Made by a program: the position numbers and the translations under genes | The notes under the pieces: generated by a model | Told to the model about the DNA's origin: nothing | Database searches by the model: none | The model's input: the letters and a program-made list of their open reading frames with translations, nothing else | Assembly: GCA_903850425.1 (NCBI GenBank) | Contig: CAINLR010000089.1 | Coordinates: 1 to 34,880, forward strand | DNA length: 34,880 bases | Direction: 5' to 3' | Source of the DNA: an uncultured Verrucomicrobia subdivision 3 bacterium | GTDB taxonomy: Bacteria; Verrucomicrobiota; Verrucomicrobiia; Limisphaerales; UBA11358 | Part shown: positions 768 to 23,621 of the stretch, one piece after another | How positions within the stretch are numbered: the stretch's first letter is position 1 | Layout: each line of letters begins with the position of its first letter

Positions 768-1513
768 TTAATGTGGATGCAAATGGTGCAAGATGTGTGG
801 GCGCTCCAAGCCATGCGCCAGCATTAGCTTTTCATCCGATAACAACTCCACCGTGCGACCATCGGCGATAATTTGGCCGTGATCCAGAATGATTGTCCTT
901 GCGCATAATTCCACTGCCAGTTCCAAGTCATGCGTGGCAATAAGTTTGGTTGCAGGCAATGTCCGCAGCATCGCCTTAAACTCGCGCCGACCGCGCGGGT
1001 CCAGGTCACTTGTCGGTTCGTCCAGCACCAGCACCGCCGGTTCACACGCCATCACGCCAGCCAGACACGCGCGACGTTTCTCGCCGTGGCTCAAGTGATG
1101 CGTTTGCCGTTGCTCGAATCCGGCCAACCCCACTTGCGCCAAAGATATTTTCACGCGTGCGGCAATTTCCGTTTCGCTCAAACCCAGTTGTTGCGGACCA
1201 AACGCCACATCCTCCGCTACCGTCGGACAAAACAACTGGTCGTCCGGGTCTTGGAAACCAGCCCGACCTGTCGCCGGATTTGCTCCAGATTTTTGGCCGC
1301 GACCGGCTCGCCATAAATTTTCACCGCGCCATCGCCGGAGAGTTTTTCCGGCAGCAAGCCGTTCAAATGCAGCAGCAGGGTGGATTTGCCGGAACCGTTT
1401 GGGCCGAGCAGTGCGATGCACTCGCCGGGCAGCACGCGAAAACTGATTCCCCGCAGCGCTTCCGTGCCGTCGCGGTAGCGGTATTTCAGATCGGTGATTT
1501 CGATTGCGTTCAT
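768..1513 (-). CDS. cbiO: CbiO-type ECF/ABC transporter ATPase, one-base frameshift
   Basis: This is the ATPase of a CbiMQO nickel/cobalt importer and would power metal uptake through CbiQ. The start is the ATG at 1513-1511, one base after the cbiQ stop. The first frame (start [16 protein letters not shown]) contains Walker [10 protein letters not shown] and runs to RRQVGLV. The other frame then carries [21 protein letters not shown] (Q-loop), the signature [13 protein letters not shown] and Walker [16 protein letters not shown], with the H-loop in IATHDLEL, to TAA at 768. The two join if one base is restored in the run at about 1255-1257 (GTTTCCAA read as GTTTTCCAA on the minus strand). Everything on both sides is well conserved, so either the loss is very recent or it is a sequencing error in a homopolymer. 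If real, the transporter would lack its ATPase unless another copy exists. Confidence 0.85.
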
Positions 1514-1514
1514 T

Positions 1515-2138
1515 TTATTTCCAGCCGCGCGCACACATGGCGTTGTAAATCCGTTCCGCCCGTTCCGACGCCCGCACAAAAAGTTGTCCCACCACCGACG
1601 CCAGCGCCAGCCATTGCCAACGCCGTCCGCGCGTGAACGTCCGGCTCGCCCGGGCCCGCCGCATCCGCTCCGCCTCGTCCGCCAGCACAAACAGATACCG
1701 GTGCATCAGTGTCAGCGTGGTGACGAAGATCCACGGCACCCGCAGCCGTTGCAGCACGCGCAGCAATTCCGTGAAGGGCGTGGTGTTCGAGAGCAGCAGG
1801 GTCGTGAGCAGGCACAAATTTGCCTTGAGCATCACCACTGCAAAAATCCTGCCGCCGTCCGGCTGAAACCACATCAGTCCCGCCATGCCCAGCACCAGCG
1901 GTTCCAGTAGCAGCAGCCGTTTCACCAGCTGCCAGAGGGGAATCTGGCTGACCGCCAGCAGCCCGGCGATCACGGCGCCCACGATCATCAATCCGGTCAC
2001 GGCTGTGCGCGGTAGCAGCACGACCGTCAAAATCAAGACCAGTGCCACGACCAATTTCCCGCCTGCCGGCCAGTGTTCCAATGGGCCATGTTCGTGGTCG
2101 TCGGCGTGGTTGTGGGGATGTGAATGATGTCCGCCCAT
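1515..2138 (-). CDS. cbiQ: CbiQ-type transmembrane component of nickel/cobalt ECF transporter
   Basis: The 207-residue protein is the T component that couples the ATPase to the CbiM substrate-binding subunit in the inner membrane. Several hydrophobic segments lie between about residues 28 and 145, and the C-terminal cytoplasmic part holds the coupling motif region (DEAERMRRARASR and RASERAERIYNAMCARG), as expected for CbiQ. The first 23 residues are rich in His (HHSHPHNHADDHEH), an unusual cytoplasmic metal-buffering tail that favours nickel or cobalt as substrate. It is the first gene of a leftward cbiQ-cbiO pair, one base from cbiO, and starts 38 bp from the nearer of two tandem NikR-like operators. 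Family assignment is firm; Ni versus Co rests on the regulator. Confidence 0.88.
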   Translation of the reverse strand: MGGHHSHPHNHADDHEHGPLEHWPAGGKLVVALVLILTVVLLPRTAVTGLMIVGAVIAGLLAVSQIPLWQLVKRLLLLEPLVLGMAGLMWFQPDGGRIFAVVMLKANLCLLTTLLLSNTTPFTELLRVLQRLRVPWIFVTTLTLMHRYLFVLADEAERMRRARASRTFTRGRRWQWLALASVVGQLFVRASERAERIYNAMCARGWK

Positions 2139-2175: not shown

Positions 2176-2203
2176 TTATTACTTATTTGTTTGACCGTAA
2201 CAC
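2176..2203. promoter_or_regulatory. NikR-like operator 1
   Basis: TTATTAC-N14-GTAACAC, an imperfect dyad in the divergent cbiQ/cbiM gap. It matches in half-site and spacing the GTGTTAC-N13/14-GTAACAC form I recall for deltaproteobacterial NikR. The right half overlaps the space just after the -35 of the cbiM promoter. Confidence 0.7.
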
Positions 2204-2218
2204 CATACTTATTACTAT
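2191..2218 (+). promoter_or_regulatory. Candidate sigma-70 promoter for the cbiM operon
   Basis: TTGACC (2191-2196), 16 bp, TACTAT (2213-2218), about 50 bp before the cbiM ATG. Both operators overlap it, so bound NikR would exclude RNA polymerase. The boxes are visible; their use is inferred. Confidence 0.5.
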
Positions 2219-2236
2219 ACGTTTAGTTCGTAACAC
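2209..2236. promoter_or_regulatory. NikR-like operator 2
   Basis: A second TTATTAC-N14-GTAACAC, identical in both half-sites and spacing to the first but with an unrelated spacer. The two sites are 33 bp apart, close to three helical turns, so two NikR tetramers could bind the same face and control both cbiM and cbiQO. Confidence 0.7.
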
Positions 2237-2268: not shown

Positions 2269-3219
2269 ATGCACATACCCGACGGTTTCCTTGATGCCAA
2301 AACACTCGCCCTCACCGGTGCCCTGTCGGCGGGCGGACTCGCCGTCGCCGCGCGTCAGGTCAATCGCACGTTGCCGCGCAACAAAATTCCGCTGATGGGA
2401 CTTGGCGCGGCGTTCGTCTTCGCGGCGCAAATGCTCAATTTCCCCGTGGCCGGCGGCACCTCCGGCCATCTGCTCGGCGGCGTGCTGGCTGGGGTGCTGT
2501 TGGGACCGGGGGCAGCGGCCATCGTGATTGCCTGCGTCCTGCTCGTGCAGGCACTGCTGTTCAGCGACGGCGGCGTGCTGGCCTTGGGCGCAAACATTTT
2601 CAACATGGCCTTCATCGGCGCGATGGTCGGCTACACCATTTACCGCACGGTGTTCCGGTTTCTGCCCGGACTGCGCGGACGCATCGCCGCCGTGTTTTTC
2701 GCCGCGTGGTGTTCCACTGTGCTGGCGTCCCTGACCTGTGCGGGTGAACTCGCCTTGTCCGGCACACTCGCGCCTGCCGTGGTGTTTCCCGCCATGCTTG
2801 GCACCCACGCGCTCATCGGCATCGGCGAAGGGTTGATCACGTCGCTGGTGATTCTCACGATTGCGCGGACGCGACCGGATTTGCTGGAGCAGGAAACCGC
2901 CCCGGCTACGCGCGGCACCGGTTGGGAATTTCTGGCATTCGGCCTCGTCATCGCGCTGGGGTTGGCCATCTTCGTTTCACCTTACGCCTGCGCCTGGCCG
3001 GATGGACTGGACAAGGTTGCGCAACAATTCGGCTTTGAAGGCCGCGCGGCCACGCTCATCAAGACTTGGATTCCCGATTACAAAATGCCCGGCATCAGTT
3101 CCGAAGGCATTGCCACCGCCGTCGCCGGAGCCATTGGCACACTGATCATGTTCGGCCTCGCCTGTGTGGTTGGCCGCGTATTGGTGCGGACCGGCGAGCC
3201 GCGCAAAACCACTGACTAG
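2269..3219 (+). CDS. cbiM: CbiM/NikM-type substrate-binding membrane subunit with fused PDGLE (CbiN-like) domain
   Basis: This is the substrate-specific membrane subunit of a nickel/cobalt ECF importer. It begins MHIPDGFLD, the family's N-terminus, in which Met1-His2 binds the metal ion. Membrane segments follow, with [15 protein letters not shown] and the motif [14 protein letters not shown]. After about residue 225 a C-terminal extension carries a helix and [14 protein letters not shown] (about 243-256), the PDGLE/CbiN-like module, so M and N functions are fused in one chain (NikMN-like, 316 residues). It is the first gene of a rightward operon: the next gene starts 38 bp on, and no terminator is visible between them. 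Two tandem NikR-like sites lie upstream. Nickel is the best guess for the ion; cobalt cannot be excluded from the sequence alone. Confidence 0.93.
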
Positions 3220-3257: not shown

Positions 3258-3914
3258 TTGAACCCGCACCGACTTCAAAGCTGCCTTGCCAATAAACTCT
3301 CAGCGGTTCTGCGGCGTCCTGCTGGCCTGTCGGCCTTCACGCTCATTGAATTGTTGGTGGTCATTGCCATCATCGCCATCCTTGCTGCGTTGCTGCTGCC
3401 CGCGCTGGCCGGTGCCAAGGAGCGCGGCAAGCGTGCCGCTTGCTTGAGCAATCTCCGGCAGATTGGACTGGCCACTCAGCTTTACGCCGATGATTCCAAG
3501 AGTTATCCGCCAGCGTGGATAGATTCCACCACGCGCTGGATGGATTTGCTGAAACCGTTTATCGGTAAGACTTCCGGGGTCTATTTGTGTCCATCGGATT
3601 TGAAAAAAATTCCCGTGACATGGGACACCAACATATTTTTGAGCTACGGCATCAACACCTTCAACTTTGCTGGCAACGCTTATTGTTTCTGGTATGGCGT
3701 CAATCAAAGTAGTGTCCGCCATCCGTCGAGCACCATCATTTATGCCGACTGCACGCCCGGAAAATACTACTGCGGCGGCGGCAGTTCCTTCACCAATCCA
3801 GTCGTGGACGTGGACTATCGCCATCCCAAGAAAGGTTTTGTGGCTGCCTATTGCGACGATCATGTGGAATTCAAAAACATCTCCACCAAGGAGGAATGGG
3901 ACGCCTCAAATTAA
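3258..3914 (+). CDS. DUF1559-like type II prepilin/pseudopilin-like protein
   Basis: The start is a TTG at 3258, six bases after the ribosome binding site AAAGGA; no ATG fits. The protein has a short basic leader, then a prepilin peptidase site before [20 protein letters not shown] (about residues 27-46). The globular part ([21 protein letters not shown], later a Cys-containing segment and a [10 protein letters not shown] end) is of the DUF1559 kind common in Verrucomicrobiota and Planctomycetota. Such proteins are thought to be cleaved by a prepilin peptidase and held at the inner membrane or assembled into pseudopili. It lies between cbiM and the DUF3344-like gene, with gaps of 38 and 14 bp, so it probably serves the same system, perhaps by presenting or exporting its surface protein. 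That link is inferred from position only. Confidence 0.85.
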
Positions 3915-3928
3915 CCGCCCCTGAATTT

Positions 3929-5119
3929 ATGAAAACATCCGAACGACAACTCATAACCGTCATACTCACCCTCACGCTGGCGGGAGCGTTGCTCCCGCAA
4001 ACTTTGCGCGCGGGTTTCTCGCTCCCGTCCGGCTCGACTTCACCCGGTCACGGCATTTCCAACGTCCTGTCCGGCACTGTCGCCAACGGCGCGCTGTTCT
4101 GGCAAAGCACCACCAATTGGGTCAACACCACGCCCGCCAAGCCTTACGCGGTGACGAACAATTATGCTCTGCCTGCTTGCGATTCCATCGCGGTTGCACG
4201 AATCGTGGCGACCATCTGGGGCGGCACGGCGAACTACGTCAGTGAAATGACCGTGACCGTCAACGGCACAAACCTGCCCGCTGCTAACCCGCTTGTGTTT
4301 GGCACCACCACGGACACGAATGCCGTTTTCAGCGCCACCAGTGCCAATGCCTACGGCTCTGGTTCAGGCGTCTGGCTCGTTACGTTGCCCGTGCCTGCGT
4401 CCATGCTTTTCACCGATGGCACACTTAACAACATTGTGGTTTCGCAAAACACCACGACTGGTTTTGATGGACGCGTGCAGCACGTCACCTTGCTCGTCGT
4501 CTATCAAAGCAGCGCACTCAACAACACGTTTGACTATGCCATCGCTGAAGGTGGCGGTGACATTTACAAGTCGCCCGCCGGCACACAAGTTTCGCAACGG
4601 ACAGTGACCTTCGATGCCGTCCATCCCGCCACCGCCACCGCCGCCACATTGAACGTGCTTTACACCTATGCCGACGCCCTGAATGACCGGCTCTATTTTA
4701 ACGGCACGCAATTCGGCGGCGACAACGTCGCGCAGTTTGATACCAGCGTGGTCAACAATGGCCCATCCGTCTTGAGCTTCGATGTGCTTGCCAATCTGGT
4801 GACCACGAACACCGTTACGTTTTCTCTTGGCGCGGATGTTCCCGGCACTCCCGAAACCAGCTTGCGTCCACAACTCGCCGCGCTGGCGGTGACGCGCACC
4901 GCCGCAACCATCCTTGCCCCGACGCTGGCCATCACGGTTCAAACCAATCTGGCTCGCCTCACCATCACCGGCGAGAGCAACCGCACTTACACCGTGTTGT
5001 CCTCGCCCGACCTGTTCAGCTGGAGCACCAATGCGAGTTTCATCAGCAGCAACGCCGTTTCGCAGTGGAGTGTGCCCGCCACCAACACCACCCGCTTCTT
5101 CCGCGTCCGCGCCCAATAA
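3929..5119 (+). CDS. Secreted DUF3344-like surface protein
   Basis: The ATG at 3929 gives MKTSERQLITVILTLTLAGA and a signal peptide ending near LRA|GFSLP (about residue 28). The frame stays open upstream, but that part overlaps the prepilin gene and is not protein-like. The middle resembles DUF3344: VARIVATIWGGTANYVSEMT, LLVVYQSSALNNTFDYAIAE and DRLYFNGTQFGGD are the family-like blocks. From memory, DUF3344 proteins occur beside CobN, ExbB-like and DUF2149 genes in methanogens. The last 60 residues form a separate module (YTVLSSPDLFSWS ... FFRVRAQ) shared in style with two other secreted proteins here. The next gene starts 10 bp on. It may be the extracytoplasmic receptor for a metal complex; no binding residues can be named. 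Confidence 0.75.
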   Translation: MKTSERQLITVILTLTLAGALLPQTLRAGFSLPSGSTSPGHGISNVLSGTVANGALFWQSTTNWVNTTPAKPYAVTNNYALPACDSIAVARIVATIWGGTANYVSEMTVTVNGTNLPAANPLVFGTTTDTNAVFSATSANAYGSGSGVWLVTLPVPASMLFTDGTLNNIVVSQNTTTGFDGRVQHVTLLVVYQSSALNNTFDYAIAEGGGDIYKSPAGTQVSQRTVTFDAVHPATATAATLNVLYTYADALNDRLYFNGTQFGGDNVAQFDTSVVNNGPSVLSFDVLANLVTTNTVTFSLGADVPGTPETSLRPQLAALAVTRTAATILAPTLAITVQTNLARLTITGESNRTYTVLSSPDLFSWSTNASFISSNAVSQWSVPATNTTRFFRVRAQ

Positions 5120-5129
5120 ATAAAATCCC

Positions 5130-5684
5130 ATGACTGCCGTTGACCAACTCCGCGAATTGTTTCATCACATTGCCGCCTTCCTCGTCTGGCCGGTGCTGCT
5201 CGGCTTGCTCGGCTTGCTCGCTGCCATTCTGATTTCCGTCGGCGCATTTCTGCGCGAAGCGTGGGATCGCCGCGCGGGCCGGCGTTCCGGTTTGGAACGC
5301 GCACAGCAGGCACTGGATGAAATTGCCGCCAAGCAAGCGGGCGAAGGACTTGACCTGCGTTTGGAAGAAATCCTGCAAAACACCGAACGCGAACGCTGGC
5401 GGGCGCTTGGCCGACTGCGGCTCGCCGTGCGCGTTGGCCCGTCGCTTGGCCTAATGGGCACGCTGATTCCGATGGCTGACGCGTTGCAAGGTTTGGCCGA
5501 TGGAAATTTGCCCGCGCTCGCCAGCAACATGGTTACGGCCTTCGCCGCGACCGTCATTGGCTTGACCATCAGCGTGACGGCTTATCTCATTGCCGCCGCA
5601 CGCGAAAGCTGGGTGCGCGCGGATTCACAGGCGTTGGCGTTTCATGCCGAGCGAGTCCTGCGTGCGGCGAAAGGAAAGGAATGA
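5130..5684 (+). CDS. MotA/TolQ/ExbB-type proton channel protein
   Basis: The 184-residue protein has the ExbB/TolQ layout: a first membrane helix (about residues 17-40), a long cytoplasmic helical stretch rich in Arg and Glu, then two more helices. The third region carries the family core RVGPSLGLMGTLIPMADALQ (about 101-120), followed by NMVTAFAATVIGLTISVTAY. Such proteins use the proton gradient to do mechanical work on periplasmic partners. Its partner is probably the DUF2149 protein, whose start overlaps its stop by four bases (ATGA). Between a surface protein and a CobN-like chelatase, it most likely powers substrate transfer or metal extraction, as in hmu-type clusters. No TonB or TonB-dependent receptor is in the window. 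Confidence 0.88.
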   Translation: MTAVDQLRELFHHIAAFLVWPVLLGLLGLLAAILISVGAFLREAWDRRAGRRSGLERAQQALDEIAAKQAGEGLDLRLEEILQNTERERWRALGRLRLAVRVGPSLGLMGTLIPMADALQGLADGNLPALASNMVTAFAATVIGLTISVTAYLIAAARESWVRADSQALAFHAERVLRAAKGKE

Positions 5685-6049
5685 CCATGCGCTTTGTTCA
5701 TCGCCACCGTCTTTCCGCCCACGGGCCAGCCCCCGGACAGGACGAAGACCCGCTCGCCGGCCTCGCCAATCTGTTCGATGTCAGCGTCGCTTTCATCGTC
5801 GCGCTGTTGATTGCGCTGTTTGCCTTGTTCTCGTCCGGCAAGCTGCTCGACAAAAATGCCAACGTCACGCTCGTCAAGCAGACCGAGAATGGCGAAATGG
5901 AAATCATCACCAAACAAGGCGGGCAAATCAAAGTGCAGAAAGTCACCGACAAGACCCTCTCCGGTCAGGGCACGCGGCTCGGCACGGCGTATCGTCTCGC
6001 CAACGGCCAGGTGGTTTATGTGCCGGACGACGAGGCAAAACCGAAATGA
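5681..6049 (+). CDS. DUF2149 family protein, ExbD-like partner of the channel
   Basis: The 122-residue protein overlaps the ExbB-like gene by four bases and is preceded by GAAAGGA. After a basic, Pro-rich N-terminus comes the motif DPLAGLANLFDVSVAF leading into a single membrane helix (about residues 34-52), then a soluble domain with alternating charged strands (VTLVKQTENGEMEIITKQGG). Asp33 at the start of the helix resembles the proton-carrying Asp of ExbD and TolR, which suggests that DUF2149 plays the D-subunit role; that is my inference. The family is known for occurring beside CobN-like chelatases (HmuV in Bacteroides haem loci, as I recall). The chelatase start follows after 7 bp. Confidence 0.82.
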   Translation: MTMRFVHRHRLSAHGPAPGQDEDPLAGLANLFDVSVAFIVALLIALFALFSSGKLLDKNANVTLVKQTENGEMEIITKQGGQIKVQKVTDKTLSGQGTRLGTAYRLANGQVVYVPDDEAKPK

Positions 6050-6056
6050 GCGTGGC

Positions 6057-9000
6057 GTGAAGTTCTTCGCCAAATGTTTCATTCTCACCGGATGCCTGCT
6101 TGGCGCACTCGCCCAGGCTGCGCCGGTGAAAGTCGCGTTGCTTACCGGCGACGCGTCATCCGCCGCCGCCATCGGCGCTATCACGGAACTGCGCCGTGAT
6201 GTCGCGTTAAAAGACGTGACCGTTCGCTCCTTTCCACGCATTGAATTGTCCGATGCTGACCGGCAGTTTGTGCGCGAAAGCGACCTCATCATCGGCTACA
6301 CCCGCTACGGCGCGTTGCTTCGGGCGCTTGCGCCGGAAATTCGCGCGGCAGGAGACCGAGGCAGTTTCGTCGCTGGCGTCGGTGGAACGCTTGACCCGGA
6401 ATTTGCCGACCTTGGTTTCAAACGCGATGCCGCGCTCGCCGCGTATTTCGACGCGGGCGGTCAGGCGAATCTGGTGCAGATGGTTCGCGCCTCGCTCGCC
6501 CGAAAACTTTTCCCCGGATTAAAATTCCTGCCGCCATCCCTTTTCCCTGAAATCGGTTTCTTCGATCCCGCCAGCCGTCGGGCGTTTTCACGGTTTGAAG
6601 ATTATTCCGCCGCCTATCTCGCCGGCAAACCCGAACGCCGCGAGCGTCCGTGGATTGGCATTCTTTTCTCGCGCGACACCGCTACCGCCGGCCAGACCGA
6701 ATTGCTTTCCGCCCTCAATGCCGCCTTGGACGCACGCGGTTTCAACACACTCTTCGGCTTCGGCTATCCGGCCGACGCCGCTTTGCCGGTGTTGTTTCTC
6801 GACACCGCCAACCACAGCCGCGTCGAGGCCATCGTTGGGCTGACGTTGAAGATTGGTAATGTTCCGTCCAAGCTCGCGCCGGTGCTGGCGCAACTGGACG
6901 TTCCCATCGTCAATGCCATTGCCTTGAACAGTCAGAGTCGCGCCGAATGGGAACGCTCCGCCAGTGGCCTTGATTTCATCGAACGCTCCTGGCAAGTCGG
7001 CAGCGCGGAACTCGCGGGCGCGATTGCGCCGACGATTGTTGCCTCGAAAGAAAAGCTCGTGGACGTTGCCACCGGCGAAACTTATGTGATGACCATGCCC
7101 ATTGCCGAGCGCGTCGAAAGGCTTGCCGACCGTGTGCAGGCATGGGTGAAATTACGCCACGAACCAGCCAACGAACGCCGTGTCGCGATCATTTACTACA
7201 ACTATCCGCCGGGCAAGGAGAGCATCGGCGCGTCGTATCTGAATGTCCTGCCAGAATCCTTGCTGCAAATTCTTAACCGTCTTCGCGCCGACGGTTTTGC
7301 CGCGAAAGGCGCACCGACGAATGCCGGTGATTTGTTTACCGCCATCCGCACTTTTGGAAACAATCCCATGCCGGGAACAAATGCCGCCGCCGAATTGGAC
7401 AAGCTGGCGCGTTCGGGCCGCTGCCAACTGCTGGCCGTTTCCGAATACCGAAAATGGTTCAATCAATTGCCCGACGAACTGCGTTACCCCGTCCTCTTCA
7501 AGTGGGGGGAACCAGAGCAAAGCCATATCATGGTCTGGCGCGACGACACCGGAAAACCGTTCTTCGTCTTTCCGGCGCAGCGCTGGGGCAATCTGCTGTT
7601 CGCCGCGCAGCCGACGCGCGGCTGGGATCAGGACTTGGAGGCCGCGTATCACAACGTCAAGCTGCCGCCGCATCACGAGTATCTGGCGTTTTATCTCTGG
7701 CTGCAAAAAAGCTTTCAGGCAGACGCGATGGTTCACGTCGGCGCGCACGCCACGCATGAATGGCTGCCGGGCAAGGAAGTCGGCTTCACCGCCGCCGACA
7801 CCGGCGAAGTCATCGTCGGAGCCGTGCCACAGTTGTATCCGTTCATCGTGGACGACATCGGCGAAGGCTTGCAGGCGAAGCGCCGCGCGATGGCGACCAT
7901 CATCACGCATCTGCCGCCGTCGTTGGATCGCGCCACGCTCAATCCCGAATTGCGCGAGGTTTCCAGCCTCATTAACGACTACCACGCCGCCCGCGAAAAA
8001 GGCGCGGTCGCCAGTGACGACATTCTCCGGGAACTCGCGCGCAACTGCGAAAAAATCGGGTTATTCAAAGACGTTGGCATCACGCTCGCCACGAATGCGC
8101 TCTTGAACGCCGACCAACTTGAAGACCTTGACCATTACCTTGAGAAAGTTGGCGACCGCCTGACGCCGTTTGGAATGCACACGTTTGGCGTTGCGCCCGA
8201 CGAAGCGAAACGCGCCGCCACCGCCGAGGCCATTCTTTCGTTGGAACCGAATCTTTCGCCGGAAGAACACGCGCAGCGCAAAGCGGAGTTGATGGCGCGT
8301 ATCGAGGCTTCCGCCCATGCCGAACTCGACGCGCTTTCCGCCGGACTGGCGGGACGCTACATCGCCGCCGGGCCGGGCAACGATCCGGTTCGCAACCCTG
8401 ATTCGCTGCCGACGGGAAAAGATTTTTATGGCTTTGACCCGTCACGCTTGCCCACGACCGCGACCTTTGCCGCCGGTTCACGGCTGGCAACTGACATCAT
8501 CGCTTCGTATCGCAAGCGGCACGACGGGCAGTTTCCCGACCGCTTGGTTTTCAATCTTTGGGGCACGGAGACGAGCCGGCATGAAGGCGTGATGGAGGCG
8601 CAAATTCTCGCCCTCATGGGGGTGCGCCCGAAGTGGGACGCGCGCGGTCGTGTGCAAGGCTTGGAGTTGATTCCGTCAACGGAACTAGGCCGACCGCGAG
8701 TGGATGTCACCGTGATTCCGTCCGGCCTGTATCGCGACCTGTTTCCGAATCTGATGTTGTTGCTCGATCAGGCCGTGAACGTGGTGAAGACCGACACCAG
8801 TGCGGACAATCCACTGTTGCACAATATCGCCGCCGCGCGGGCCGCACTCGAAGCCCAGGGGGTTGCGCCCGATGAAGCCGAGCGGTTCGCCACCGTGCGG
8901 ATTTTCAGCGTGCCGTCCGGCGCGTATGGCACGGGCCTGGATCATGCCATTCATCATCCCGACACTTGGAACGAACAGCATGACGTCGCCGGCGTGTATT

Positions 9001-9944
9001 TCAATCGCATGAGCCATTTGTTCGGGCAGGGATTTTGGGGCACGCGCGCGGCATCGGGCACGAACCGCGACCTTTCGCCGACGCTGTTGCAACTGGCGTT
9101 AAAGGGGGCGAAAGGCGTCATCCATAGCCGTTCCTCGAATATTTATGGCGCGATTGACAGCGACGATTTTTACCAATACCTCGGCGGCACGGCGATGGCT
9201 GTGCGCAAGGTCAACGGCAAGGCGGCGGAAACCCTCGTCACCGATTTGAGCAATCCCCAGGCCGGTGAAACCATGACGCTGGAGCGTTACATGGGCCGCG
9301 AAATGCGGGCACGTTATCTGAATCCAAAATGGATTGAGGCCATGCTCAAGGAAGGCTACGCGGGCGCGCGGATGATCCGGCAGGTGACCGACAATCTATG
9401 GGGCTGGCAAGTCACCGTGCCCGATGCCGTGGGCGATGCGAAGTGGCAGGAGATGTTTGAAACGTATGTGCAGGACCGCCACGCGCTCGGCATCCGCGAG
9501 AAATTCAAAGCCGCCGAAAACCTTGCCGCCTACAAGGCGATGGTTGATCGGATGCTGACGGTCATTGAAAAAGGATATTGGAAAGCGTCGCCGGAAACCG
9601 TCGCCCGCTTGAAGCAGGCGCAAACCGAACTCGTCCCTGCCGTCGCGGCGGAAAACGAAGCCGTCGCCAAACGCGCCGAAGCGCAGCTTGGCCCGGCGCT
9701 GGGCGGGACGCCACCAGTCAGCGCGGCGGCAACTCCGGCGGCCAAATCCACGCCCGTCGTGCGCGGTCGCGTGCTGGAGGAAAAGCCGCGCGCCGATACA
9801 CCGGCACGCGCCAACGGCAAAAACTCGTCATTGCTTTCGTTGTCAGCGGGACTCATTTCACTCGCATTGATGGCTTTTGGTTGGTGGCGGGGAGGGCGGA
9901 TCAATCTCAAACCACCGGGGCGAAATCCTCGCGTTGGTGAATGA
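6057..9944 (+). CDS. Exported, membrane-anchored CobN-like metallochelatase
   Basis: The GTG at 6057 starts MKFFAKCFILTGCLLGALAQ, a clear signal peptide cleaved near AQA|APVKV; the frame open to 5811 is only overlap with the DUF2149 gene. The 1295-residue protein has CobN/BchH-type blocks: IIYYNYPPGKESIGASYLNV, VHVGAHATHEWLPGK (559-573), LYPFIVDDIGEGLQAKRRA, FNLWGTETSRHEGVMEAQIL, VTVIPSGLYRDLFPN and LWGWQVTVPD. It ends in a low-complexity linker and one membrane helix (SAGLISLALMAFGWW) with a basic tail, so the body faces the periplasm. Cobaltochelatase CobN is cytoplasmic and works with CobS and CobT; neither is here. HmuS-like relatives in Bacteroides remove metal from haem. With CbiMQO, ExbB-like, DUF2149 and NikR around it, release of nickel (or cobalt) from a tetrapyrrole or other chelate is the best hypothesis. 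Confidence 0.9.
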   Translation: MKFFAKCFILTGCLLGALAQAAPVKVALLTGDASSAAAIGAITELRRDVALKDVTVRSFPRIELSDADRQFVRESDLIIGYTRYGALLRALAPEIRAAGDRGSFVAGVGGTLDPEFADLGFKRDAALAAYFDAGGQANLVQMVRASLARKLFPGLKFLPPSLFPEIGFFDPASRRAFSRFEDYSAAYLAGKPERRERPWIGILFSRDTATAGQTELLSALNAALDARGFNTLFGFGYPADAALPVLFLDTANHSRVEAIVGLTLKIGNVPSKLAPVLAQLDVPIVNAIALNSQSRAEWERSASGLDFIERSWQVGSAELAGAIAPTIVASKEKLVDVATGETYVMTMPIAERVERLADRVQAWVKLRHEPANERRVAIIYYNYPPGKESIGASYLNVLPESLLQILNRLRADGFAAKGAPTNAGDLFTAIRTFGNNPMPGTNAAAELDKLARSGRCQLLAVSEYRKWFNQLPDELRYPVLFKWGEPEQSHIMVWRDDTGKPFFVFPAQRWGNLLFAAQPTRGWDQDLEAAYHNVKLPPHHEYLAFYLWLQKSFQADAMVHVGAHATHEWLPGKEVGFTAADTGEVIVGAVPQLYPFIVDDIGEGLQAKRRAMATIITHLPPSLDRATLNPELREVSSLINDYHAAREKGAVASDDILRELARNCEKIGLFKDVGITLATNALLNADQLEDLDHYLEKVGDRLTPFGMHTFGVAPDEAKRAATAEAILSLEPNLSPEEHAQRKAELMARIEASAHAELDALSAGLAGRYIAAGPGNDPVRNPDSLPTGKDFYGFDPSRLPTTATFAAGSRLATDIIASYRKRHDGQFPDRLVFNLWGTETSRHEGVMEAQILALMGVRPKWDARGRVQGLELIPSTELGRPRVDVTVIPSGLYRDLFPNLMLLLDQAVNVVKTDTSADNPLLHNIAAARAALEAQGVAPDEAERFATVRIFSVPSGAYGTGLDHAIHHPDTWNEQHDVAGVYFNRMSHLFGQGFWGTRAASGTNRDLSPTLLQLALKGAKGVIHSRSSNIYGAIDSDDFYQYLGGTAMAVRKVNGKAAETLVTDLSNPQAGETMTLERYMGREMRARYLNPKWIEAMLKEGYAGARMIRQVTDNLWGWQVTVPDAVGDAKWQEMFETYVQDRHALGIREKFKAAENLAAYKAMVDRMLTVIEKGYWKASPETVARLKQAQTELVPAVAAENEAVAKRAEAQLGPALGGTPPVSAAATPAAKSTPVVRGRVLEEKPRADTPARANGKNSSLLSLSAGLISLALMAFGWWRGGRINLKPPGRNPRVGE

Positions 9945-15398: not shown

Positions 15399-15827
15399 AT
15401 GAAAAAAGATACCGCCACACGCTTTAGCGTTTCCCTGCCGCCCGCGCTGCTTGATCAACTGGATGAGATGACCGGCGAAAAAGGCTACGACAACCGCTCG
15501 CTTGCCATTGCCGACATGATCCGCGCCCAGCTTATCGAGCACCGCCAGAAGTCTGACACCGGAGAAATTGCCGGCACTATCACGCTCGTCTATGACCACC
15601 ACAAGCCGCATTTGCAGGCGAGCCTCACCGACATCCAACACGACCACCACGACGCGATTCTCTCCACCGTCCACGTCCATCTTGACCATCACAACTGCTT
15701 GGAAGTTTTGATCGTGCGTGGCAAGGCCAGCGTCATCCGCAAGATCGCCGACGAACTCATCGCCGCCAAAGGCGTGAAGCACGGCAAACTCACCGTTACC
15801 ACGACAGGTAAAGACCTTCCGTCATAA
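15399..15827 (+). CDS. nikR: Nickel-responsive transcriptional regulator NikR
   Basis: A strong ribosome binding site (GAGGAGG) precedes the ATG. The 142-residue protein has a ribbon-helix-helix DNA-binding domain (TRFSVSLPPALLDQLDEM ... NRSLAIADMIRAQL, residues 7-46) and a C-terminal ACT-like metal-sensing domain. The high-affinity nickel ligands line up with those of E. coli NikR: His81 in QHDHHD, His92 and His94 in VHVHLDHHNC, and Cys100. NikR binds nickel and then represses nickel uptake genes as a tetramer. Two tandem operator-like dyads lie between cbiQ and cbiM, 13 kb upstream; none is visible before nikR itself. This gene is the strongest reason to call the locus a nickel system rather than a cobalamin or haem one. 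Confidence 0.95.
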   Translation: MKKDTATRFSVSLPPALLDQLDEMTGEKGYDNRSLAIADMIRAQLIEHRQKSDTGEIAGTITLVYDHHKPHLQASLTDIQHDHHDAILSTVHVHLDHHNCLEVLIVRGKASVIRKIADELIAAKGVKHGKLTVTTTGKDLPS

Positions 15828-15901: not shown

Positions 15902-16255
15902 TCAGCTCTTATTCTCGACCCGATTCGGTTGTGACTCGACTTCAGTTACGGCGATTTCAAGAATCACCGGCTGACCATCCGCAATCAAAGCGCGCTGGCT
16001 GCTCGGCAACTTTGTCAGGAGGGACAATTCCATCCGTTGCATCGCCGTCTCGATGCGGCGCAATGCCTGGCCGGTCACCAAGACTTCGTGCGTTACGAAA
16101 ACCAGCCGCAGAGCATGGTCCGCACCTTCGCGTTTGAGTTCGGCGAAAACAAATTCGTCATGGGGCAGAAGCATCGAATGATCTGCCGAGATTTCAACGC
16201 GAACACCGCGCGCTTGCGCGTCATTCGCCCAACATTCTGGTGATTTTGTGCTCAT
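15902..16255 (-). CDS. Conserved hypothetical protein next to the relaxase
   Basis: The 117-residue protein begins MSTKSPECWANDAQARGVRV and overlaps the 3' end of the helicase half by 35 bp, as expected for a coupled downstream gene. It is soluble, without a signal or membrane segment; LPHDEFVFAELKREGADHAL followed by LRLVFVTHEVLVTGQALRRI and ETAMQRMEL reads as a compact alpha/beta protein. I recall similar genes beside MobF relaxases in Verrucomicrobiota mobile elements but know no function. Confidence 0.65.
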   Translation of the reverse strand: MSTKSPECWANDAQARGVRVEISADHSMLLPHDEFVFAELKREGADHALRLVFVTHEVLVTGQALRRIETAMQRMELSLLTKLPSSQRALIADGQPVILEIAVTEVESQPNRVENKS

Positions 16256-17975
16256 GTTTTTGTCTGGGTTGTTGTCGTTGCCGGCGTGCTAGTGTCAGCC
16301 GGAAGAAATTGTCGGCGGCGCGACGGCCAAAGCGAAGCATGTAGCCGTGCAGCCGATTCCAAAGTCGGTTGTTGCGCCGAGGAACAAAGCCGGTCGCAAA
16401 TTCCATCGCCAGCGGGCGATGACCAGGGCGCGTAACATTTTCACGAAGCTGCTGCTTGTCCGGCGTGAAGATGCGGATTCCGCGCCGCCCGCGTGAAATG
16501 GTCACATACCATTGCTGCGCGTTGGTCGCCGCCTTGATGGTCGAATCGGAAAACAAAACGTGATCCACGGTTTTGCCCTGCGAGCCGTAGGACGTGACCG
16601 CGTAGCCGGGCAAAAATTCGCGAAATGATTTGTCCAAGACCCGGCCATCGGCCAGTTCGACCGCGCCATCGGCACGGACAGATTTAACCGCAACGAGTTC
16701 GCCATTCGTGACCCGGCCACCGGTCACAAGTTTCCGGTTGGCCTTGAGATGCAATCGGTCGCCAGTCGAAAGAGTGATTTCGCGCTGCTGACAGACCGTA
16801 ATCCGGTCCAGCAATTTGTTCGAGACGGTGACAAATTTTCCATCCACCTCCACGAGAACGCCCAGCTTGACGATGCCAGCCAGTTTTCCTTTCGCTCCCG
16901 GTTTGGCCGTGCGGACTTTCTGGTTGAACACGACGACGGCTTCCGGCGGATAAAACCGTTCGTCGCGCTTTTGCGCGTTTGTGAGGTCAAGTTTGTCGAG
17001 TGCCTGAATTGTCGTGTCATTAGCGCCGAGCAATCCTTTCGCTTTGAGCGCATCCCGCACGCATGAGTTGACCCGGTGAACCTCGGCCCAAGTTTGAGAA
17101 ACCACCACCGCCGAGGCGTTTTGTTCCGCGAGCCGGACATATTCGTCGGCAAGTTTGTCCGCCTGTTCGCCCAAGCCGCATTCGACGACTGCGCCCATTT
17201 TATCGAGGCGCTTGAAAGATTCCACATGCTTGCCCGCCGCTGCCGCTTCGACAGCTTTGCGATACTGCTGAATCCGGGCGCGCTCTGCGGCGGTGCGGGC
17301 GAGTGCCGGGTCTTGGCGACGAATCGTGTGCAATTCCACTGGTTTGACGCCGGAATGCCGCTCAATGGCAAGCAGCGCGTCTGAAGCCTCAACTGCGCCA
17401 TGCTGCCGGGTGTCGCCGGACAAAATCACGCGGGCATTCTTGTCACGGGCGAGACGCAGGAGTTCGAGCATTTGTCGGCCACCGATTTGTCCGGCCTCGT
17501 CCACGATAATCAGCGCGCCGGAAACGACTTCGCGCTTGAGCAGAAAACTTGCGATTGTTGATGGCGACGGAAGTCCGGCTTTTTCCATGTCCACGACCTG
17601 TTGGCGCTGCGGCGCGAGAACGACCACTCGCCGCCCCGCTTGTTGAACCTGCTCGGCCAGATCACGGAGGACAAAACTTTTACCAGTGCCAGCACCACCA
17701 CGAAAGATTGAAATCCTGTCCGTTGAGCCAAGCAATTCAGCGAGTGCCTTGCGCTGCTCTTCATCCAACTTTGGATTCAGCGGCTGTGGATTCGCCACCA
17801 ATGTATGACAGTCGGCAACGCCTTGTTTCGTGGTCTGAACGATTTCCCATTCGCGCAGCAGAACTTCACGCATCGTCACTTCGCCGGGCCGCGCTTCGTC
17901 CCGGATATAGCCACGCCGCTGGGTGAATTCCTTGAGGTCGGAAACTGAGAAGCTTTCACCACGCGCCCGGCCCAA
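16221..17975 (-). pseudogene. MobF/TraI-type relaxase, helicase half severed by inversion
   Basis: This is the C-terminal two thirds of a conjugative relaxase-helicase. The frame opens only at a TTG within the breakpoint (17975) and starts GRARGESFSVSDLKEFTQRR, the linker that in full-length MobF proteins follows the relaxase domain. RecD-like helicase motifs are intact: Walker A FRGGAGTGKS, Walker B ALIIVDEAGQIGG, LSGDTRQHGAVEASDAL, TIRRQDP, TSYGSQGKTVDHVLFS and WYVTISRGRRGIRIF. In conjugation this part unwinds DNA behind the nicking domain. The missing relaxase half is on the plus strand at 19682-20746, and inverting 17973-20746 rejoins the two in frame at ATTG. The motifs have not decayed, so the break is recent or is an assembly error. 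Confidence 0.85.
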
Positions 17976-19320: not shown

Positions 19321-19599
19321 TTAGACGTGGATGCAGTGTGATGGTTTGTGCGCGAGTTCTTGCCGGTGGCCTGGCCGGCGTTTGGAAAGCCATTGAGCCC
19401 GTCGCAATTCAGTGGCCGCGACCGGATGTGCCCACGGTTCGCCAAATCCAAGTCGGGCGGCTACCTCCTCGGCTGTGAGCTTGGTGGGAGCTTCAACCAC
19501 GGTGCGAAGTGGATCACCCATCACGCGGGCATATTCCCGGTCGGTGTGGTAAATGCCCCACAGTTGGTTGCCTGGCTTCAGAGTCGCGTTCGTGCTCAT
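19321..19599 (-). CDS. Small hypothetical protein of the mobile element
   Basis: The 92-residue protein begins MSTNATLKPGNQLWGIYHTD and is followed after two bases by the next leftward gene, so the two form a pair. The middle, TKLTAEEVAARLGFGEPWAH, looks like a helix-turn-helix or AlpA/excisionase-style segment, and the C-terminus is basic (RRAQWLSKRRPGHRQEL). DNA binding is plausible but unproven. It diverges from the relaxase gene across an 82-bp gap that should hold both promoters and perhaps oriT. Confidence 0.55.
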   Translation of the reverse strand: MSTNATLKPGNQLWGIYHTDREYARVMGDPLRTVVEAPTKLTAEEVAARLGFGEPWAHPVAATELRRAQWLSKRRPGHRQELAHKPSHCIHV

Positions 19600-19681
19600 G
19601 GAGGCAGTTCAACATAATCAGAGGGCGCAATGGAGTGTCAGGCACACAAAGGCCGCGCGCAGTCCGTGTAATGTCCGGGGT

Positions 19682-20830
19682 ATGGTCACGGCCAAGACGC
19701 AATACAACCTGAAGAACGCGCGGGAATACTTTGAGGAACACCTTTGTGTCGGTGATTACTACGATGAAGGGCAGCGCGTGGCCGGCGAATGGGTTGGTAT
19801 GGGGGCGGTGCGGCTCGGATTGGCCGGAAAAGTCCGCGCCGATGATTTTCTGCGGTTGTGCGAAAATCAACATCCGGGCACAGGCGAGAAGCTGACTCAG
19901 CGCCAAAACACCACGCGGACTGAAGGCGACAAAAATACGGCCAATCGGCGGATATTCTACGACTTCACATTTTCACCCCCAAAATCGGTTTCCCTCGTGG
20001 GTTTCCTTGGCAATGACGAGCGGATTTTCGAGGCTCATGCGCGGGCGGTTCAGGCAGCCTTAAAAAACTTTGAGGCTTTCGCGGCAACTCGTGCTCGCGT
20101 TGGTGGCGTGCGAAACGAGCGGCTTACCGGGAATTTCGTCGCCGCGCAATTCACCCATGACACCTCGCGCGCTCTCGATCCCCATCTGCATACTCATTGC
20201 ATCGTTTTCAACGCGACCTTCGACGCCGTGGAAAACCGGTGGAAAGCGCTTGAGAATTACGAATTACTGCGGGCGAGAAAATTCGCGGAGAACATCTACT
20301 ACCACGAGTTCGCCCGTGACTTGAAGGCTTTCGGGTATCGGATTCGCAACCGATCACGCGGCGATTTTGAAATCGAAGGGGTATCAGAGGAAATTTGCCG
20401 GCGCTTTTCCAAGCGAGATGCGGAAATTGATGCAGCGTTGGCGAAACTGCTGGCGGATCACCCGGAACTTGGCGGGGCAAATATCGCGGAACTCCGGGCA
20501 AAACTCGCCACGGAAAAGCGAACGCGGAAACAGAAAGATTTGAGCCGGGATGAACTGCGGCAACTGTGGGAGGCGCAGTTAAGCAAATCCGAGCATTCCT
20601 CGTTGCGCCAGCTTTCAGAGCAGCCGAAGCATGACGTGAAAGAGGAAAAGCGCGTTAATGTCAGTGAAGCGGTTCAGTGGGCAGAGGAACATTTGTTCGA
20701 CCGCAACTCGGTTGTGCTGGAATGCCAGGTGTGGCAGGAGGCATTGTTCGCCTGGACACGTCGGGCGATAAATTCCGCATTGAACTCGACGGACAGGAAT
20801 CCAACAACCGGGGCATCGCGGGCGAATTGA
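19682..20830 (+). pseudogene. MobF (TrwC/TraI) relaxase domain, severed from its helicase half
   Basis: The ATG at 19682 gives MVTAKTQYNLKNAREYFEEH, the usual MobF N-terminus with the catalytic Tyr region (YDEGQRVAGEWVGMGA follows). RIFYDFTFSPPKSVSLVGFL and the three-His metal motif in DPHLHTHCIVFNA are intact. A relaxase nicks oriT and stays bound to the DNA 5' end during conjugation. The native sequence runs to VVLECQVWQEAL at about 20746 (355 codons); after that the frame reads 28 unrelated residues in methylase DNA to a chance stop at 20830. The helicase half is on the opposite strand at 16221-17972, and the two join in frame if the segment between is inverted. Confidence 0.85.
20743..20746. 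other. Rearrangement breakpoint B (ATTG)
   Basis: The relaxase gene (CAGGAGGC) meets ATTG and then the methylase C-terminal frame (GTTCGCCTGGACACG). It is the partner of the breakpoint at 17973-17976. Confidence 0.6.
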
Positions 20831-22134: not shown

Positions 22135-23211
22135 TTAACCCGCCGCAGAAAACGAGTGGCCATTCTTTTCAGGGCCGGGCAAAGGCGGCAGCAGTGGCAC
22201 GATGCGGCCTTCCAGATTCTGGTTCTCGTAGCTTTCCAACGATGGCAGTCTGACTTTGGCTTTTCGGGCGTAAGCCCGGTGAACGGCGATGCTGTTGTGG
22301 CCGAGCGCCTCCTGCGCGAAGCGTTCGGGATAGCCGCATTGTTTGGCCCGTTCGGCCCAAGCGTAACGGTAGGAATGCAGCGAGACACCCTCAATGCCAA
22401 GCCGCACGCAGAGGCGCTTGAATTCCTTGGCCCGGTGCTTTTCCAGCATCGGAGCCAACCGGGGAAACAACAACCCCTTGGCTGGCAGCGAATGGAGAAC
22501 GGCTTCGATTGCCGGACCAAAATGAATGAACGCTGAGCTGCCGGTTTTTCTGCGGGCGTAGGCGATCACCCGGTCCGACCAGTCAATGTTTTCCGCCGCC
22601 AGATTGGCGATGTCCGACTGCGAACCGCCGAGATGCCAGCAAAGTTCAAAGAAGGCCCGCCGTTCGATATTTGTGTCCAGGGCGACAATTCGCCGGTGCT
22701 CGTCGGCGGTGATGGCCCGTTTCGGCCCGTATTCAAATTTCGGCCACAGCCGTCGGGGAATAATTGGCCAGGCCAGCCAGTTCATCGCCAAACAATAGTT
22801 GTGCAGTTCGCGCAACAGGATGTTGGTGCTGACGGTGCCCTCCTTCATGCAGGTGAGCAACTGTTCCGCCTGCGTCTCGACGACGACGAGCCGACGGATC
22901 AAATCAAATGCCTGCTGTTTCGCACCCCGCTGCCAGCGTTCCTTGGTCGTTCCCTTCTTGTATTCAATGATGGCATTGAAAGCGTCTTGCCAAGTTCGCG
23001 TTGAAATGCCCGAATCCGTTCCCGCCAGATATGCCTTGGCGATTTGAAGGTTCAGTTGCGGTTGCCGGGAGGCTTCATTGCGGGCGTTGAGCAGCGTCGT
23101 GGCCTCGGCCCGATTTCGCGTGCCGGTGCTTTCCTGCTTTCGGGTTTGGGAGTCTTCGACGTAGAACATACCGCCCATTTTGCGGCGGTAGAGACGGAAA
23201 CGATTTTTCAT
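22135..23211 (-). CDS. Tyrosine recombinase/integrase lacking the first catalytic Arg
   Basis: The 358-residue protein has an N-terminal DNA-binding part (FRLYRRKMGGMFYVEDSQTR) and a SAM-like core-binding domain to about residue 160. The catalytic domain keeps Lys222 (ARRKTGSS), HSYR (His279, Arg282), LGHNSIA (His304) and Tyr314 in HRAYARKA. At the Arg I site it reads WHLGGSQSDIANL, with Ser197 where Arg is usual. I recall the GGSQSD form as a branch feature in Verrucomicrobiota, so the protein may be active by another route or serve as a directionality or accessory factor. It points away from the tRNA-Leu gene, with its start 322 bp from the tRNA 3' end, the normal place for the integrase of a tRNA-inserted element. 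Confidence 0.8.
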   Translation of the reverse strand: MKNRFRLYRRKMGGMFYVEDSQTRKQESTGTRNRAEATTLLNARNEASRQPQLNLQIAKAYLAGTDSGISTRTWQDAFNAIIEYKKGTTKERWQRGAKQQAFDLIRRLVVVETQAEQLLTCMKEGTVSTNILLRELHNYCLAMNWLAWPIIPRRLWPKFEYGPKRAITADEHRRIVALDTNIERRAFFELCWHLGGSQSDIANLAAENIDWSDRVIAYARRKTGSSAFIHFGPAIEAVLHSLPAKGLLFPRLAPMLEKHRAKEFKRLCVRLGIEGVSLHSYRYAWAERAKQCGYPERFAQEALGHNSIAVHRAYARKAKVRLPSLESYENQNLEGRIVPLLPPLPGPEKNGHSFSAAG

Positions 23212-23533: not shown

Positions 23534-23621
23534 TGGTGCCGGTGGTGGGACTCGAACCCACACGACGTTTTACGGTCCCAGGATTTTAAGTCCTGTGCGT
23601 CTGCCATTTCGCCACACCGGC
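23534..23621 (-). tRNA. tRNA-Leu (anticodon UAA) with encoded CCA
   Basis: The minus strand folds into a complete class II tRNA: acceptor GCCGGTG/CACCGGC, a D arm with GGCAGACGC, anticodon stem CAGGA/TCCTG around CTTAAAA (anticodon TAA), a long variable arm, T arm GTGGG-TTCGAGT-CCCAC, discriminator A and encoded CCA at 23536-23534. The 3' end faces the integrase at 22135-23211 and is a likely attB-type target. I found no second copy of its 3' end in the window. Confidence 0.95.

Follow-up and report, generated by a model that had tools for sequence, protein, structure and literature searches.

Which regulator controls cbiM in the window analysed here, a 34,880-base stretch of DNA from a genome of the Verrucomicrobiota, and through which sites does it act? 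The gene (2269–3219, plus strand) encodes a CbiM/NikM protein with a fused PDGLE (CbiN-like) domain (Pfam CbiM, 211 bits; PDGLE, 52 bits), predicted to be the substrate subunit of an ECF-type nickel/cobalt importer, and it is the proposed regulated gene. Divergent from it lies cbiQ for the transmembrane subunit (1515–2138, minus strand; Pfam CbiQ, and NCBIfam TIGR02454 above cut-off), followed by cbiO for the ATPase subunit (768–1513, minus strand). In this assembly cbiO is broken into two overlapping frames, which join near 1256, and it was recovered as two overlapping tblastn pieces against an intact paralogue on contig C57 of the same genome; the break is either a genuine frameshift or a fault of the assembly. 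The N-terminus of CbiQ (2080–2138, minus strand) reads by eye as rich in histidine, and may perhaps form a metal-binding tail.

Two tandem dyads over the cbiM promoter

The gap between the start codons of cbiQ (2138, minus strand) and cbiM (2269) contains two exact plus-strand copies of TTATTAC-N14-GTAACAC, just where the earlier note had placed them: a distal dyad at 2176–2203 (half-sites 2176–2182 and 2197–2203; −93 from the cbiM ATG) and a proximal dyad at 2209–2236 (half-sites 2209–2215 and 2230–2236; −60 from the ATG). The two copies stand in a 33-bp register and share identical half-sites and the N14 spacing, and their spacers differ in sequence, again as claimed. Each dyad spans 28 bp with two inverted half-sites, which is the geometry of a NikR operator (27–28 bp, about two helical turns), and the dyad centres lie 33 bp, or about three helical turns, apart.

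The pattern had no match in 100 dinucleotide shuffles. GTAACAC and TTATTAC each occur twice in the 34,880 bases, in both cases only within the dyads, and the reverse complement of neither is present in the window. Across the whole genome (G000; 6,888,713 bases in 197 contigs), exact TTATTAC-N14-GTAACAC was found only at these two dyads. The dyads are not a product of chance. When up to two mismatches were allowed, the genome scan returned 49 and 40 places as against 98 and 104 for the reversed control, so that at this tolerance the pattern has no power to reveal a wider NikR regulon in the same genome. Two near matches in this genome were inspected: L004 belongs to the C57 locus, and L007 falls within a long reading frame.

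Both dyads overlap a consensus promoter of a CbiM/NikM-type permease gene, for a permease whose nickel specificity we infer. The promoter, TTGACC-N16-TACTAT, occupies 2191–2218 and overlaps both dyads, in agreement with the note. Its −35 hexamer TTGACC (2191–2196, plus strand) falls in the spacer of the distal dyad, directly beside that dyad's right half-site, and its −10 hexamer TACTAT (2213–2218, plus strand) shares its first three bases with the end of the left half-site of the proximal dyad. A promoter scan of 2050–2350 on both strands found it to be the sole promoter-like site (1 found, 0.2 expected). The description of the dyads as lying over a divergent promoter thus holds for the gene layout, but the only promoter found reads towards cbiM; for cbiQ, nothing on the minus strand of 2050–2350 exceeded the scan threshold, and no convincing hexamer pair was seen by eye. 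Repression of cbiQO on the opposite strand is plausible as well, since the cbiQ start codon lies just 37 bases away from the distal dyad. TTGAC is kept in all 11 aligned upstream regions, and by eye most close relatives carry TACnnT at N16 or N17 from the −35 box. In single-dyad loci and in several distant ones, too, a TTGAC box was seen by eye with TACnnT 16 to 18 bases further on, and from this recurrence the half-site of the operator seems to serve also as the beginning of the −10 box.

Conservation upstream of cbiM in the family

The earlier note had staked its reading on conservation of the dyads in close relatives, and a dyad at 13/14 or better was found in 12 of the 16 distinct cbiM upstream regions of the family. 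The family set comprised 49 genomes, all labelled as one genus, of which 15 encode CbiM; the 16 upstream regions with a readable start were scored against KTRTTAC-N13/14-GTAAYAC after L024 (a start-less fragment) and L027 (the same gene as L023) had been set aside. In nine of the 12 loci the dyad sits at −59/−60, and the left halves of the relatives include GTATTAC and GTGTTAC. Exact KTATTAC-N14-GTAACAC occurs at 11 places in the 49 genomes, 10 of them before cbiM and the exception in G030. With one mismatch allowed, the motif was no commoner in these genomes than its reversed control; its meaning therefore comes from its placement.

The four upstream regions without a dyad belong to G007, G027, G037 and G001. 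The CbiM of G007 is 89% identical to that of the window; this genome, listed as 81% complete, gave no nikR hit, and its upstream region keeps TTGACA and TACGAT by eye, as if the promoter had been released from control. No operator was found elsewhere in the loci of G027, G037 and G001 at 12/14. Both G037 and G027 have nikR near cbiM with no NikR dyad, and in both (L020, L021) a palindrome with arms ATTACG/CGTAAT, less complete in G037, lies within about 75 bases before cbiM.

The tandem layout, with dyads at −93 and −60, is present in five loci (the window, G041, G036, G005 and G013). These loci align without an indel, retain the 33-bp spacing in every case, and in the relatives encode CbiM proteins 76 to 87% identical to that of the window. 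Between −93 and −33, no variation was seen in 22 of 28 half-site columns, as compared with 10 of 33 other columns (p = 0.00018), and without the −35 box the other columns drop to 5 of 27 (p = 8e-6), both p-values being optimistic because the sequences are related. The half-sites are thus more conserved than the spacers. Conservation is strongest in the proximal dyad, where 13 of 14 half-site columns, including all seven of the left half, are invariant across the five loci; the distal right half keeps 6/7 columns and the distal left half, the least conserved, 3/7.

This asymmetry bears on whether both dyads act. It is possible, though we lean against it, that the proximal dyad alone works, the distal copy being weaker or in decay and conserved mainly at the −35 box and the adjoining half-site. 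Scored against KTATTAC/GTAACAC, the distal dyad reaches 14 of 14 in the window and in G041, 12 in G036, 11 in G005 and 12 in G013, and is thus weaker (11 or 12/14) in three of the five tandem loci, where its left half reads ATAATAC (G036), GTGTTAT (G005) and GTAATAC (G013) beside an invariant proximal left half. Four further loci (the C57 locus of G000, and G048, G032 and G040) carry a 14/14 proximal dyad at −59/−60 and no distal dyad at 11/14 or better. Decay of the distal copy is harder to reconcile with its perfect form in the window and G041, with the retention of its right half across all five loci, and with a 33-bp spacing that never varies among them. Both dyads are likely to be functional. 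A tree of 19 CbiM rows did not separate the tandem from the single layouts into supported clades.

The second cbiM locus of the same genome, on contig C57, encodes a CbiM 88% identical to that of the window, with cbiQ and cbiO divergent from it and nikR downstream of cbiM. Its gap contains a single dyad, GTATTAC-N14-GTAACAC, at −60 from the ATG, which is the position of the proximal dyad in the window.

NikR and its link to the motif

The proposed binder is encoded in the window itself. The nikR gene (15399–15827, plus strand) specifies a nickel-responsive ribbon-helix-helix regulator (Pfam NikR_C, 119 bits, and RHH_1; NCBIfam NF003381, 191.6 bits against a cut-off of 105) and is one of two copies in the genome, the other being on C57. 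Besides the ribbon-helix-helix and NikR_C domains, the protein has a segment, diqH...HvHldhhnC, that aligns with solved NikR chains; which of its residues are the His/His/His/Cys nickel ligands is our assumption. The best solved match was 2bj1, which we take to be NikR of Pyrococcus horikoshii, followed by 2wvd/2ca9, presumably NikR of Helicobacter pylori; the window protein shares with 2wvd/2ca9 an RFSVSL strand that we assume to be the DNA-contacting one.

At E ≤ 0.001, nikR was detected in 21 of the 49 family genomes and 71 of 320 genomes of the order. Its co-occurrence with the dyad in the family is not decisive: nine genomes have both, three have nikR without a cbiM dyad (G001, G027, G037), two have the dyad without a full nikR (G012 and G032; 74% and 88% complete), and one has neither (G007). 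In the C57 locus, G036 and G040, nikR adjoins cbiM or sits just downstream of it.

A stronger link came from the regions upstream of nikR itself. Among 45 distinct nikR loci that had not been fetched by the motif, GTRTTAC-N13/14-GTAAYAC at 12/14 or better was found upstream of nikR in 11, eight of them at 13/14 or better and four perfect, versus 0/45 in coding controls from the same loci. Over all nikR loci the motif was present in 12 of 46, a count that includes the motif-fetched loci L139 and L143 (the L143 site is also in L185, brought in by CbiM), whereas the reversed and everted forms were each found in 0/46 and resampled sequences gave 4/2300. In nine of the 11 the motif precedes the start by 26 to 43 bases; in the others it is at −105 (L202) and −192 (L117), the latter perhaps belonging to a neighbouring cbiM promoter. 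The contigs concerned are assigned to Planctomycetota, Lentisphaerae, Verrucomicrobia, Hydrogenedentota, Omnitrophica, Elusimicrobia and Actinomycetota, among others, and its recurrence close before nikR in several phyla ties the motif to NikR. In the window's own family the motif was found upstream of no nikR; there it marks cbiM and not nikR.

Outside the family the signal before cbiM is weak. Other cbiM loci of the order carried the motif at 12/14 or better in six of 37 cases, and loci from named genomes in seven of 80, versus 0/80 coding controls; four of these seven (L147, L148, L154 and L177) are contigs already counted as G040, G013, G005 and G116. The full GTGTTAC-N14-GTAACAC was found before cbiM in L153 (uncultured bacterium; −85) and L162 (uncultured Verrucomicrobia; −56), in both of which cbiM, cbiQ and cbiO run in one direction, the layout in the window's group being divergent. 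Exact KTRTTAC-N13/14-GTAAYAC occurs at 30 distinct places in the 320 order genomes, 11 before cbiM, two directly before nikR and 17 elsewhere, 12 of the latter inside a mechanical reading frame. A dyad that is almost the same in both, TTATTAC-N14-GTAAYAC, occurs in G091 and G092 (L132 and L133) at a site apart from their nikR, with prepilin-like and kinase-like reading frames (by eye) nearby.

The deltaproteobacterial consensus that the earlier note had invoked, GTGTTAC-N13/14-GTAACAC, was found in print as a set of predicted NikR sites (PMC545781, Genome Biol. 2004). The window dyads match its right half at 7/7 and its left half at 5/7 (TTATTAC against GTGTTAC), and a GTaTTAC left half is listed there for one D. 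desulfuricans site, before hydAB (PMC545781). The full published form, GTGTTAC-N12 to N15-GTAACAC, has no exact match in the window's own genome. The sites listed in that paper likewise form 27–28-bp inverted repeats with the same right half before a nikM-type transporter gene; unlike them, the present pair has a TTATTAC left half, two head-to-tail dyads 33 bp apart, divergent cbiM and cbiQO, and a host outside the Proteobacteria (PMC545781). More than one predicted NikR site per promoter region is listed there too, upstream of D. psychrophila 422176, but those two are everted (GTAACAC-N13-GTGTTAC) and by their listed positions 73 bp apart (PMC545781). The Escherichia coli operator GTATGA-N16-TCATAC, which regulates nikABCDE, has the same 28-bp geometry of two half-sites for a NikR tetramer; its half-site letters differ and nikABCDE belongs to another transporter family (PMC7055735). 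The H. pylori consensus TRTTA-N15-TAWTA resembles TATTA-N16-TAACA here in its TRTTA core, with a spacing one base shorter, but the H. pylori sites are AT-rich and less symmetrical, and NikR of that species is described as also inducing urease transcription (PMC5385501). As here, a NikR-like motif has been placed in another non-proteobacterial phylum, before two nik loci of Caldithrix abyssi (PMC5317091). Our literature search, mostly of open-access papers, found none on NikR operators in the Verrucomicrobiota.

Transported metal and a model of control

The substrate is probably nickel and possibly also cobalt. We infer nickel from the predicted NikR control, from the fact that no riboswitch in the window reached its Rfam gathering score, and from the presence on contig C12 of the same genome of a gene for a full-length NiFe hydrogenase large subunit; urease was sought in this genome and not found. 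One Verrucomicrobia genome is listed without any of the nickel/cobalt transporter families surveyed (PMC2667541).

An improbable alternative is that another metal regulator binds the dyads and that the transporter serves cobalt. The NCBIfam models for the transporter are named after cobalt, the window CbiM itself scoring below the NCBIfam CbiM cut-offs; the same stretch also contains a gene for a CobN-like chelatase, which scores under the NCBIfam CobN cut-offs; and the family has the two genomes with a dyad and no full nikR and the three with nikR and no cbiM dyad. Such a regulator would leave unexplained the motif before nikR in 11 of the 45 loci not fetched by it and the closeness of nikR to cbiM at C57, G036 and G040, and a cobalt substrate fits poorly with the riboswitch and hydrogenase results. 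Least credible of all is that one dyad was lately duplicated in tandem by chance and that the pair has no role in regulation. The identical half-sites of the two window copies might point that way, but their spacers differ, and relatives with CbiM proteins 76 to 87% identical keep the layout.

The genes around the importer show two further features. Between cbiM and nikR, 3851–9944 contains a DUF3344 gene, a MotA/TolQ/ExbB gene, a DUF2149 gene and the CobN/Mg-chelatase-like gene, possibly a further metal or corrinoid system. RadC (2–577, at the left edge), a TraI-type helicase (16221–17975), a TrwC relaxase (19553–20830), a phage-type integrase (22135–23211) and tRNA-Leu (23534–23621) possibly mark an integrative element with the nik cluster as cargo; a second copy of the tRNA-Leu end, as an attachment-site repeat, was not found in the genome at up to two mismatches.

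Judged from sequence, we hold it highly probable that the dyads are a tandem pair of NikR operators on the cbiM (nikM) promoter. The NikR-like reading of the earlier note gains support from family conservation, from the motif upstream of nikR and from the published consensus. The pair most likely represses cbiM, and is very likely a known type of nickel switch, here with a tandem layout. When nickel suffices, a nickel-loaded NikR tetramer would sit on each 28-bp dyad: the distal one would cover the −35 box in its spacer, and the proximal one the −10 box and the likely transcription start, expected from its position to fall within the proximal spacer. Together, the two tetramers would cover the whole core promoter and shut out RNA polymerase, and uptake of nickel, possibly also of cobalt, would then stop. 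Because the dyad centres lie 33 bp, about three turns, apart, the tetramers would occupy the same face of the DNA and may help each other to bind. More tentatively, cooperative filling by two tetramers may sharpen the switch, the distal tetramer may also shut cbiQO and so set all subunits together, and the single-dyad promoter on C57 may respond at a different nickel level.

For specialists, this is a useful confirmation and not a surprise. The pair would extend the GTGTTAC-type NikR code from the Deltaproteobacteria to a Limisphaerales-related group of the Verrucomicrobiota, and it helps to place a transporter named for cobalt under nickel control. With double- and single-operator copies of the same promoter, this one genome offers a clean natural test of what the second operator may add.
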